Virus record (IMG/VR): IMGVR_UViG_3300025704_000013
Span: 1-64,000 of that record
Reading direction: 5' to 3' (one strand)
DNA from: a virus
DNA length: 64,000 bases
Positions 30,165-34,124 of the stretch are shown one piece after another; position 1 is the first letter of the stretch; each line of letters begins with the position of its first letter. The translations under genes were made by a program, and so were the position numbers. The notes below the pieces were generated by a model that saw only the letters and a program-made list of their open reading frames with translations, was not told where the DNA came from and did not search any database.

Positions 30165-30755
30165 ATGGCTTCAATTAATAAATTAAAATCTATCTTTAAT
30201 AAAAGAGGTCCTGCGCTTGCTAATCGATTTAAACTTGATTTTTCAGGAATGGCGACTTTAAGTAGTAAATTAGATGCAACAACAGAGGATCTTAGAGAGC
30301 TTTCTTATTTAGTTGATTCTGCATCTATGCCTGGGAGACAACTGCAAACCTTTGGGTATGACTTGTTTAGACATACATCTGAAGTTCCAACGGGATATGT
30401 TAATGAAGGATTTTCGGTTGAGTTTAATATGACAGCCGATATGATGCCTAAGCGCGTATTTGATAGTTGGATAAATCTTGTAGTAGATTCTGAATCATAC
30501 TTAATGAAATATGAAAAAGAGTTTAAATGTAATCTTCATATTATTCAAACCGATATGGAAGATAAGAAATCATATGTGTTAGAACTAGATAAAGTATTCC
30601 CAAAAACAATTAGAGGAATTTCATATTCTCAAACTTCAGCAGACTTAACAAAGTTCGGAGTTGAATTTGCATATAATGATATTCGCATATGGGATGAAAA
30701 GCGCTATTCTGAAGTTAATAAATTAGCGTGGGATCATGATAAAGGCGGTAATTAA
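30165..30755 (+). CDS. 54: Tail-tube-fold protein, gp54-like tube initiator candidate
   Basis: 196 aa with the tube-protein plan: ANRFKLDF strand, SYLVDSASMPGRQLQT loop (typical of gp19-like tubes), GFSVEFNMTADMMPKRVFDSWINLV, and a C-terminal FPKTIRGISYSQTSADLTKFGVEF split over two strands. T4 has three such proteins: gp19, gp48 and gp54. Since gp48 is across the divergent promoter and gp26 follows, gp54 is the best guess; a paralogous tube protein is possible. There is no Shine-Dalgarno, only AT-rich sequence. Confidence 0.7.
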   Translation: MASINKLKSIFNKRGPALANRFKLDFSGMATLSSKLDATTEDLRELSYLVDSASMPGRQLQTFGYDLFRHTSEVPTGYVNEGFSVEFNMTADMMPKRVFDSWINLVVDSESYLMKYEKEFKCNLHIIQTDMEDKKSYVLELDKVFPKTIRGISYSQTSADLTKFGVEFAYNDIRIWDEKRYSEVNKLAWDHDKGGN

Positions 30756-30773
30756 GCTTTATATATAAATTAT

Positions 30774-31472
30774 ATGAACTTACCAAAAATAACTACTCCA
30801 AAATATTCTCTTACCATTCCGTCAAATGGTAAAAAAATAGAATTTAGGCCTTTCTTAGTTAAAGAAGAAAAGCTATTATTACTAGCTCAGGAATCTAAAA
30901 AGACTTCAGAAATTACAAAGGCAATTAATGACGTTATTGGGTCTTGTACATTTGGAAATATTAATTTTAATGATCTGACAAACTTCGACGTTGAATATAT
31001 TTTCCTTAAGTTAAGAGCAAAGAGCGTTGGCGAAGTCGCAGAAGTTTCTGTCAAATGCAAACATTGTGAAGCATCTAACGAAATTGAAATTAACTTAGAT
31101 GAAATAGAAGTTAATAAAAAAGAGCCGTTGCCTGATAAGGTAATGCTAACAGATAAAATTGGTATTATCCCACGTTATATTTCAGCCGCCTCTTTAGGCG
31201 TAGATGTTGGAGATGATGTTAATGATATGTTTTCATTTTATATTAGAAGCGTAATTGAAAGCATTTTTGATGAGAATGAAGTATATCCAATTTCGCAAAC
31301 AAGTAAAGAGGATTTAGACGAATTTATCAATAGTCTTAATCGAGAGCAAATGAGCAAGATCGAAGAAATTATTGAATGCGCGCCAAAGCTTGAAAAGGAA
31401 ATACAATTTAAATGCGTTAAGTGTAAAAAAGATAATACATATGTTCTTTCAGGCGCAGAGAGTTTTTTCTAG
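30774..31472 (+). CDS. 26: Baseplate hub assembly protein gp26-like, frameshift donor
   Basis: 232 aa (T4 gp26 about 208). The N-terminus (KITTPKYSLTIPSNGKKIEFRPF, LVKEEKLLLLAQES) is the family hallmark. Two CxxC pairs (CKHCEASNE near residue 100 and CVKCKKD near the C-terminus) suggest a zinc ribbon. It lies between the tube-fold gene and the tape measure, as lambda gpG does. The last codons read AGT TTT TTC TAG, placing a canonical T TTT TTC slippery heptamer directly before the stop. A -1 shift would add 59 codons. Confidence 0.88.
   Translation: MNLPKITTPKYSLTIPSNGKKIEFRPFLVKEEKLLLLAQESKKTSEITKAINDVIGSCTFGNINFNDLTNFDVEYIFLKLRAKSVGEVAEVSVKCKHCEASNEIEINLDEIEVNKKEPLPDKVMLTDKIGIIPRYISAASLGVDVGDDVNDMFSFYIRSVIESIFDENEVYPISQTSKEDLDEFINSLNREQMSKIEEIIECAPKLEKEIQFKCVKCKKDNTYVLSGAESFF
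31463..31469 (+). promoter_or_regulatory. Slippery heptamer T TTT TTC for programmed -1 frameshifting
   Basis: In the gp26 frame the bases parse exactly as X XXY YYZ (T TTT TTC), followed at once by the TAG stop at 31470-31472. The -1 frame is open from before the heptamer to 31648. A small palindrome (CTCATGAG, 31482-31489) lies 13 nt downstream; no large pseudoknot is obvious by eye. Confidence 0.65.
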
Positions 31473-31648
31473 TATGCCTCTCTCATGAGTCTTTGTTTAA
31501 TTATTATAAGACCAACTTTGCTTTAATGCAACATCATAAATATAGTTTAACAGAACTTGAGAATATGATGCCATGGGAGAGGGAAATTTATATTTCCTTA
31601 TTACTTGAATGGATAAAAGAAGAGAACGAAAAGCAGAAAAATCAATAA
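31469..31648 (+). CDS. 51: gp51-like short ORF, probable -1 frameshift extension of gp26
   Basis: In the -1 frame relative to gp26 the reading continues LVCLSHESLFNYYKTNFALM, then QHHKYSLTELENMMPWERE, ending NEKQKNQ. The only ATG in frame is at 31526 (40 aa), inside what looks like conserved sequence. A TTG at 31493 is the only other start-like codon. The fusion product would be about 291 aa. The domain resembles short proteins labelled baseplate hub assembly catalyst or tail-assembly-chaperone partners; T4 gp51 itself is far longer. Independent initiation at 31526 is the alternative. Confidence 0.7.
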   Translation, partial: LVCLSHESLFNYYKTNFALMQHHKYSLTELENMMPWEREIYISLLLEWIKEENEKQKNQ

Positions 31649-31657
31649 AGATATCTA

Positions 31658-31665
31658 TATAAATA
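31658..31665 (+). promoter_or_regulatory. Late promoter octamer TATAAATA at the tape-measure start
   Basis: Exact octamer in the 25-bp gap between the gp51-like stop and the tape-measure ATG. The 8-nt spacer predicts a near-leaderless mRNA. Confidence 0.7.
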
Positions 31666-31673
31666 TAATATAG

Positions 31674-34124
31674 ATGGAAACGCCAAGTAATACTAATAAT
31701 AATACTAATAATAATTCTATTATAGGCCCTATAATTGCTTCTTTACAGAAAGAATTTATAAGTGGGCTTAATGAATTAAAGGGTATTGGTATAGCAACTT
31801 TAAAGAAAAGTGTTGCCAATAAAATTGAAACAAATACATTATTAAGTAGTGGTAATAAATTACTTGAGTTCATTGCTAGTGATAATCAAAAAAATGTTGA
31901 TGCTATCAAGGATTTACAAAAGGATTTATCGGCATCATCTAAAAGTTCTATAGCCGCTATTAAAGAACAAAGTGAAGAATTCCAAGGGTCTATAGATAAT
32001 TTATCAAAGGTTGTTAACCAACCCTCAATAATTAAAGAAACTATAGTTAATAATGATAAAGAAACTATAGTTAATAATGATGATAAAGAAACTATAGTTA
32101 AGCCTGCGCCGCTACCTAAAATGTTTACTGATAGGGCTTCTTTATTTAATGCGCCCAAATTACTAGATCCTGTTGCACAGGACAGAGGCCTTAAAGTTCT
32201 AAAAAAGATAGCCGAAGGCAACGGGCTTTTAAATGCAAATGCAGAAGAGCTAAAATCAATATCTTTACTAACTAAAAAAGCTAATAAGACTGAGAGCGAC
32301 AGTTTTAGTTTTGAAAAAATGATGGCTAGGAAATTGGCTTTAAATAAAAAAGAATCCGAAGCCGAAGCCGCTAAAAAAGGACAAAGTTCAGGCAAGATGG
32401 TTAAAGAATTTATTAAAGATAACGGATGGCTTACTAATATATTAGGTTCTTTATCTTTAATAGGTGGAGTGATTGTTGGCTTTGTTGGCGAAGTGATTAG
32501 AAAAATAAAATCATTTAAAATTGTAAAATCAATTCTTAAAATTTTCGAACCAGTCAAGAATTTCTTTAGCGCTATTGGAAAAGCTTTTCGCTCTGCTGCT
32601 TCTACTTTCAGCAAAGCGTTTGACTTTATAAAACCCGTATTCAATTTCATTAAAGGGCTTGGGTCAGGCGGAAAAATTTCAAAATTCTTCAGTGCTATCT
32701 CTAAGTTTTTTAAAATAGGTATTAAAATTGGAGCAACTCTAGCCAAAAGTATTCCGATTATAGGCCAAGTTATAATGATTATTGAAGGTCTTGTTTTTGG
32801 AGTCATGGGCGCCTTTAAAGGTTTTACCGAAACTGAAGGTAATATTATTCAAAAAATCGCCGGAGGACTTATTGGATTTATTAAGGGTGCGATTGAAGGT
32901 GTCTTTGGCGGACTTATTAATCTAGTGATAGACGGTATTGGCTGGCTCGGTGGTTTATTAGGATTTGATAATTTCAAGGAAATGTTATATGACTTTGATA
33001 TTAACAAATATATTGGTGTGATAATTGACGCTATTGCTATGCCTGCCAAACTCATCATAGATTTCTTTTCAGACTTCTCAGAAAACATGAAAAGAGTTGG
33101 CGGATTCTTTGTATCTATTGGAGATAGTATAATGGGTGGTTTAGAAAAAATCGGCTTGTTCTTTGAACCTATTATCAAAGAAATACTGGATGGTTTTAAC
33201 GCGATTAGTTCGTTCTTTGTATCTATTGGAGAAAGTATAATGAATAGTTTTAACGCGATTGGTTCGTTCTTTTCAAATATCGGAGAAGAAATAAAATCTG
33301 TTGGATCATCTATAAAAGGATTTTTAAAGAACGGGGTTACATCTTTAGTAAAAACCGTCTGGGATTTCATTGTTGATGGCGTTAAAAAATTCTTTGCTAT
33401 GTCACCTGTTGGTTTAATTTCAGGCGCTATATCTGGTGATGGTGCTCTTGAAAATATACAAAGAGAAGTACTTAAAAATGTAGTTCCTGATCCTAATAAA
33501 AAGTATGATACGTTTAGTAAGGAAACCTTAATGCTTAAGGTAATGCCTGATTCTTTACTTGAATTTGTTTGGGGTTCAAAACCATCTGCAGCTGAAAGCG
33601 TTGCAGCTAGAGGATCAAAAAAGGTAGCATCTGATAAGAAAGCGGCAGAAGAAAGCGGTAATCCCGAAGCAAAACGATTGGCTGAAGAAATAGCAAAATT
33701 AGAAGCTGACAAACAAAAATTCCAAAAACAATCTGTTGAACTAACTAAACAGCAAACAGATGAAATGGATGATTTCTTTGTTAATGACGAAAAGGTAGAT
33801 ACTCTTGGACAACAATCAGATGAAGCTCAACGAAAGTCAAATGAGGCTGGGCTAGAATTAAAACAAAAAAGAGAGCAACTTAATTTATTATTAAACGAAC
33901 CTAATACATCAAACCAGCTTAGCCCTGATCAAATGGAAAAGCCCTCAAAGGTTGATAATGTTGGAGAAGCGTTATCAGAAACTGGCGCAATGAATGCAGC
34001 TCCAGTTATTAATGTTGTTAATAATAACGGAGGGAACGTAACTAATAATAGTTCACAATCCACGCAGAACACTATCGCCGAATCCACTGATAATGTTCTG
34101 GCTGGGTCTGCTATGTCTTTATAA
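31674..34124 (+). CDS. 29: Tape measure / baseplate hub protein gp29-like
   Basis: 816 aa (T4 gp29 is 590). The N-terminal Asn-rich tail and a helical, Ser/Lys-rich first third are followed by hydrophobic segments near residues 245-275 (ILGSLSLIGGVIVGFVGEVI), 350-380 and 395-430 (FGGLINLVIDGIGWLGGLLG), which tape measures insert in the membrane. Amphipathic repeats (SSFFVSIGESIMNSFNAIG) follow at ~475-545, and a long charged coiled coil (AKLEADKQKFQKQSVELTKQ) ends the protein. It sets tail length and passes through the tail tube. The minus-strand open frames inside this gene are composition shadows. Confidence 0.85.
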   Translation: METPSNTNNNTNNNSIIGPIIASLQKEFISGLNELKGIGIATLKKSVANKIETNTLLSSGNKLLEFIASDNQKNVDAIKDLQKDLSASSKSSIAAIKEQSEEFQGSIDNLSKVVNQPSIIKETIVNNDKETIVNNDDKETIVKPAPLPKMFTDRASLFNAPKLLDPVAQDRGLKVLKKIAEGNGLLNANAEELKSISLLTKKANKTESDSFSFEKMMARKLALNKKESEAEAAKKGQSSGKMVKEFIKDNGWLTNILGSLSLIGGVIVGFVGEVIRKIKSFKIVKSILKIFEPVKNFFSAIGKAFRSAASTFSKAFDFIKPVFNFIKGLGSGGKISKFFSAISKFFKIGIKIGATLAKSIPIIGQVIMIIEGLVFGVMGAFKGFTETEGNIIQKIAGGLIGFIKGAIEGVFGGLINLVIDGIGWLGGLLGFDNFKEMLYDFDINKYIGVIIDAIAMPAKLIIDFFSDFSENMKRVGGFFVSIGDSIMGGLEKIGLFFEPIIKEILDGFNAISSFFVSIGESIMNSFNAIGSFFSNIGEEIKSVGSSIKGFLKNGVTSLVKTVWDFIVDGVKKFFAMSPVGLISGAISGDGALENIQREVLKNVVPDPNKKYDTFSKETLMLKVMPDSLLEFVWGSKPSAAESVAARGSKKVASDKKAAEESGNPEAKRLAEEIAKLEADKQKFQKQSVELTKQQTDEMDDFFVNDEKVDTLGQQSDEAQRKSNEAGLELKQKREQLNLLLNEPNTSNQLSPDQMEKPSKVDNVGEALSETGAMNAAPVINVVNNNGGNVTNNSSQSTQNTIAESTDNVLAGSAMSL
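32037..32103 (+). repeat. Three short tandem repeats in the tape measure N-terminal region
   Basis: Three near-perfect 24-27 bp units built on AAAGAAACTATAGTTAATAA encode KETIVNND-like repeats (residues ~122-143). They could change copy number by slippage and so alter the linker. Confidence 0.7.
33105..33242 (+). repeat. Internal direct repeat of the tape measure
   Basis: A 30-bp segment beginning TTCTTTGTATCTATTGGAGA occurs at 33105-33134 and 33213-33242 with one mismatch. A second motif (TTTTAACGCGATT followed by GTTCGTTCTT) recurs just after. It marks recent duplication of an amphipathic tape-measure unit. Confidence 0.7.

Follow-up and report, generated by a model that had tools for sequence, protein, structure and literature searches.

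A conserved -1 frameshift signal joins gp26 to a gp51-type domain in an uncultivated marine T4-like phage and probably yields two forms of a tail assembly chaperone

Is the short open frame that follows gene 26 of a marine T4-like phage a gene of its own, or is it the frameshifted end of gp26? The question is raised by positions 1 to 64,000 of the uncultivated virus record IMGVR_UViG_3300025704_000013 (IMG/VR); this whole stretch of 64,000 nucleotides is called the window below, and its features discussed here are all on the plus strand. The gp26 gene (30774..31472) encodes a 0-frame product of 232 amino acids. Immediately 5' of it lies the gene of a tail tube protein (gp19/gp54-like, 30165..30755; phrog_45, E 5.2e-23), and the frame in question is followed immediately by the gene of an 816-amino-acid tape measure protein (31674..34124; phrog_58 tail length tape measure, E 3.2e-15). 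An earlier sequence-only reading had proposed the order tube-fold protein, gp26, frameshift ORF and tape measure, and with the phrog_45 and phrog_58 matches on either side of the slip locus this order holds. T4-late-promoter-like motifs, TATAAAT(A/T), closely precede both gp26 and the tape measure gene (30755-30773 and 31655-31673), and no Shine-Dalgarno (SD) sequence was detectable at either start in the window. The tape measure gene contains a short tandem repeat (32024-32101), seen as a repeated KETIVNND in the protein. No phage-encoded ribosomal protein S21, a possible slippage modifier, was found in the 91-kb record.

Direct reading shows that the 3' end of gp26 is GAG AGT TTT TTC TAG. 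The slippery heptamer T_TTT_TTC (31463..31469) is in the phase X_XXY_YYZ and is followed directly by the 0-frame TAG (31470..31472), which confirms the in-phase heptamer abutting the stop that had been claimed. After a -1 slip, reading would continue with CTA GTA TGC for 59 codons up to the TAA at 31646-31648; the predicted fusion of 232 and 59 residues thus has 291 amino acids, in agreement with the frame and product lengths given earlier. The -1 frame translation from the heptamer to 31648 is FFLVCLSHESLFNYYKTNFALMQHHKYSLTELENMMPWEREIYISLLLEWIKEENEKQKNQ. The statement that the only ATG of this frame is internal was right on position and wrong on number, since there are three (31526, 31565 and 31568), all within the conserved domain. 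The sole earlier start candidate is a TTG at 31493 without a credible SD sequence. Among the 14,288 codon positions of the window's long ORFs, 4 have the pattern nnT_TTT_TTn (0.03% per position). The copy in gp26 is the sole one near a stop, the other three being at least 120 codons away from theirs.

The two parts of the predicted fusion belong to known protein families. Window gp26 matches PF12322 (T4_baseplate, E 2.3e-57) and phrog_150 (E 3.2e-62); we call it the short tail assembly chaperone, or TAC-N, the -1 extension (31463..31648) TAC-C, and the fusion of both TAC-NC. The extension, which had been described as a conserved helical domain, indeed matches phrog_634, annotated as 'baseplate hub assembly catalyst', with E 4.1e-29. 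It separately matches positions 231-277 of the phrog_150 profile, and because this is the C-terminal end of that profile, some members of the gp26 family must carry the extension domain fused. The same domains are found in T4. Its gp26 and gp51 both belong to PF12322 (E 8.8e-64 and 3.9e-52) and can be aligned with one another directly (E 2e-06), and only in gp51 does the sequence go on into the phrog_634 domain (E 1e-23). T4 gp51 is therefore a full gp26-like domain with a small C-terminal domain, not the small domain alone, and the window extension is homologous to its end, as indicated by the shared phrog_634 match and by alignment.

For comparison, 141 loci were collected, consisting of IMG/VR relatives and the window's own locus, of which 140 could be scored; together with 15 named phages they supplied the 120 distinct junctions used for further comparison. 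Relative to the gp26 frame, the second domain is shifted by -1 in all 140 scored loci. T_TTT_TTN is present in 120/120 distinct junctions (60 with C, 36 with A and 24 with T at the last position), and the one scored locus without a canonical heptamer, L058, reads GATCTTTTTACGTAA instead. The same heptamer and phase occur in P-SSM2, S-H9-1 and S-N03 (cyanophages among them), Pelagibacter phage Mosig, Methylophilales phage Melnitz, Ochrobactrum phage OC, Sinorhizobium phage phiN3, Agrobacterium phage OLIVR5, Aeromonas phages 65 and AS-szw, Vibrio phages VH7D and KVP40, Cronobacter phage LPCS28, Stenotrophomonas phage Marzo and Nitratidesulfovibrio phage SRB7757. The first-frame stop lies 0 or 3 nt past the heptamer in 113 of the 120 junctions. 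The third codon specifies Phe or Leu across the junctions, yet it is always TTN; since six T are kept while the amino acid alternates, protein conservation alone cannot explain the run. From codon usage alone TTN at this codon would have a log10 P of about -54 if the sequences were independent, a figure that overstates the independent evidence because they are related. Differences from relatives in the -1 frame peak at its own third codon positions (3405 vs 2137 and 1248). The junction is thus not due to chance, given that heptamer, phase and -1 domain are all conserved in related sequences.

Access to the -1 domain by other means is restricted in most relatives. The -1 frame is closed 0-3 nt 5' of the heptamer in 19/120 junctions and, with a single exception, no further than 51 nt away in the others; between the upstream -1 stop and 30 nt past the heptamer 74 of the 120 have no ATG, GTG or TTG. 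In 87 of the 120 the first ATG comes 60-63 nt after the heptamer and is already part of the conserved domain, and in the alignment the heptamer, rather than a start codon, marks where sequence conservation sets in. With the upstream stops so close and start codons mostly absent, the -1 domain would usually be reachable only by slippage. The comparison that the sequence-only reading had proposed, whether heptamer and phase are conserved while a conserved start is lacking, hence came out in favour of the frameshift.

Candidate stimulatory elements were found on both sides of the slip site. In the family, SD-like GAGG or AAGG sequences occur about 10-14 nt upstream, starting 14-15 nt before the end of the pre-slip codon in most junctions. 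The pairing of this region with the 16S tail exceeds a protein-keeping synonymous-codon null (z = -9), as compared to z values of about 0 for three other intervals. An SD-like element stimulates -1 slippage in dnaX. The corresponding position in the window (31450..31462) reads CAGGCGCAGAGAG, a weak version with a duplex energy of only -3.1, whereas the sister locus L012 carries AGGAG there. Downstream, the folding energy of the first 45-54 nt exceeds the synonymous-codon null in about 108 distinct junctions (z -10 to -14); control intervals further downstream also have z near -2, so that part of the excess may reflect within-genome composition. The hairpins differ by lineage, for example GGCTCTC ACAT GAGAGCC (L117) and GACTATC TCAC GATAGTC (L067). 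A universal downstream stem-loop was ruled out, as no single helix is common to the about 108 distinct junctions. The window junction has no significant downstream stem-loop (z = -0.11), and together with the weak SD-like element this suggests that frameshift efficiency may be low here.

The view that the -1 ORF is a separate gene (gp51) with its own start, used for instance by re-initiation after the gp26 stop, is the one taken in GenBank, whose records list a 'baseplate hub assembly catalyst' as a gene of its own, with the start placed differently from record to record; KVP40 and Marzo indeed have a stop-start overlap, TAATG or TGATG. In two public records the -1 domain appears as a small gene with its own start at an internal ATG (L151:3064-3198 and L152:3064-3207), which removes the first third of the conserved domain, and in the S-H9-1 and AS-szw records it is left unannotated. 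A separate gene is nevertheless very unlikely. It is at odds with the 74 of 120 junctions that lack a nearby start codon, with the 87 in which the first ATG falls inside the domain, and with the onset of conservation at the heptamer, the invariance of which it would leave unexplained. No conserved start codon with a ribosome site was found for the -1 ORF across the relatives compared, the candidate starts in the window are without a credible SD sequence, and T4 gp51 has the domain fused to a gp26-like domain.

A fused product could also originate from slippage of RNA polymerase instead of the ribosome, for which every junction offers a homopolymer run of at least six T. Productive polymerase slippage usually needs longer runs, of about nine or more, whereas the T run here is often only six. 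The spacing of the SD-like element, which is the one known to stimulate ribosomal -1 slippage, and the extra downstream folding in part of the family also argue for the ribosome, and we regard a polymerase origin as extremely unlikely. That sequencing or assembly errors have split a single in-frame gene might be thought from T4 gp51 and from Campylobacter phage CPt10, in which the gp26 and gp51 domains are in one uninterrupted frame (L150:2326-3060). This explanation has a negligible chance of being correct and is refuted by the same -1 arrangement in 140 loci and many independently sequenced isolates. Ribosomal -1 frameshifting at the heptamer thus is the preferred explanation.

Variants of the junction also exist. 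In the Ackermannviridae phages LIMEstone1, allotria, Kevin and HMGUkp5, gp26 has retained its -1 extension, but the slip site is reduced to [AG]TTTTCAT(T/C)TAA (L161:4290-4310, L203:2787-2807, L204:2745-2765 and L205:2787-2807), and the junction is without ATG in three of these four phages. Vibrio phage K369 resembles this variant, with CTTTTCAAGTAA plus TAATG. In the IMG/VR record 2974754850 a mid-gene frame change breaks the ORF of a T4-type gp51 gene (L173:3001-3746), probably through an error in sequencing or because the gene is damaged.

In an unrooted tree, T4-type gp26 and T4-type gp51 each occupy one branch (100/100), and the frameshifting proteins group together on the other side (93/87). 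This separation is compatible with one duplication in the T4 branch of the Straboviridae; KVP40, Aeromonas phage 65 and LPCS28, which are also Straboviridae, kept the frameshift. Since the frameshift is spread widely, it probably came first and the duplication later, an order inferred from this distribution; the tree itself is unrooted. We give about equal credit and doubt to a broader scenario in which the ratio of products would be tuned by the SD-like element and by hairpins reinvented in separate lineages, and in which the signal would be ancestral to T4-like phages and Ackermannviridae, reduced to [AG]TTTTCAT in the latter and replaced once by the 26/51 duplication in the T4 branch of the Straboviridae.

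AlphaFold2 models had pLDDT values of 93 for window gp26 and 90 for a T4-type gp51, a natural in-frame protein that was modelled as the long form in place of the 291-amino-acid fusion. The strand and helix order of the gp51 model is that of window gp26, with four additional C-terminal helices. Among the matches listed by Foldseek for gp26 against the PDB, the highest probabilities were those of 2ob9 (0.47) and 3fgx (0.44), neither of them significant (E > 1). The former is the HK97 tail assembly chaperone (E 1.5-2.0), and the 2ob9 and 3fgx superpositions have rmsd values of 1.7-3.4 over 50-55 columns; the modelled resemblance of gp26 to the HK97 protein is therefore only a hint. Against predicted viral structures the best match was the 'baseplate hub assembly chaperone' of Acidovorax phage ACP17 (E 1e-19). 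Sequence searches of solved structures found nothing for T4 gp51, nor anything credible for the gp26 profile, and the fold search of the T4-type long form against the PDB gave nothing useful.

Judged from sequence, the locus very probably encodes a tail assembly chaperone in two forms, TAC-N and the frameshifted TAC-NC. Most ribosomes would stop at the TAG at 31470 and release the 232-residue gp26, while a minority would slip back one base on T_TTT_TTC, where the two tRNA-Phe would shift their pairing from TTT TTC to TTT TTT; translation would then run on for 59 residues and give a TAC-NC of about 291 amino acids. By analogy with lambda G/GT, many copies of TAC-N and few of TAC-NC may cover the product of the adjacent tape measure gene, tail tube subunits may be recruited by the C-terminal helical domain, and the chaperones would depart during tube polymerisation. 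The suggestion that gp26-gp51 is the T4-lineage counterpart of the lambda chaperone pair is thus supported by the frameshift signal, the gene order, the conservation and the distribution of start codons. The 'gp51' of hundreds of marine T4-like genomes would then mostly be the frameshifted tail of gp26, not a separate gene, and frameshifting and gene duplication would offer a natural comparison of two routes to the same chaperone pair.

The earlier remark that no description of such a frameshift was known for T4-like gp26/gp51 does not stand. The abstract of a 2022 study by Vladimirov, Gautam and Davidson reportedly names T4 genes 26 and 51. As cited in PMC12846349, this study (Virology 2022) reports that the TAC-N genes of T4-like phages have poly-T signals for -1 frameshifting, and according to PMC10274946, which also cites it, some T4-like phages have two genes instead, a short one and a longer, fused one. 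The principle of a frameshifted gp26/gp51 was thus already published, and the window phage adds an uncultivated marine member; the added value of the present analysis lies in its breadth and in the candidate stimulatory elements. For the SD-like stimulator, the hairpins of individual lineages and the reduced Ackermannviridae slip site, no description was found in the literature, in which the 2022 paper was represented by the papers citing it. In a review, T4 gp26 and gp51 are both counted among the hub assembly chaperones, and the function of gp51 is given as unknown (PMC3004832).

The paradigm of frameshifted tail chaperones is the gpG/gpGT pair of lambda, with a ratio of 30:1 (PMC5009743). 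Similar to the window, lambda has a short and a frameshift-extended chaperone between tail tube and tape measure, and -1 slippage takes place close to where the short gene ends (PMC5009743). Sequence homology between the window chaperone and lambda gpG/gpGT was not detected in family searches. The lambda heptamer is GGGAAAG; unlike lambda, the window has a different heptamer, its stop abuts the heptamer, and the phage belongs to the contractile-tail type. In T4, gp26 matches the short form up to its end and gp51 corresponds to the short form plus the -1 domain, but genes 26 (208 amino acids) and 51 (249 amino acids) are separate, divergently transcribed paralogs without a frameshift, whereas the window has one gene with a frameshift. 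In the Vandenendeviridae and Andersonviridae, exemplified by Pseudomonas phage Adele, TAC-N ends in a conserved T-run, GTTTTT, with a -1 frameshift; the T-run mechanism is as in the window, while the run is shorter and these are other contractile-tail families (PMC12846349). The closest counterparts are the TAC-N/TAC-NC proteins of T4-like phages from the 2022 study, which, as far as the citing papers describe them, share with the window the PF12322 family, the poly-T -1 signal and the place before the tape measure gene, with no difference of principle.
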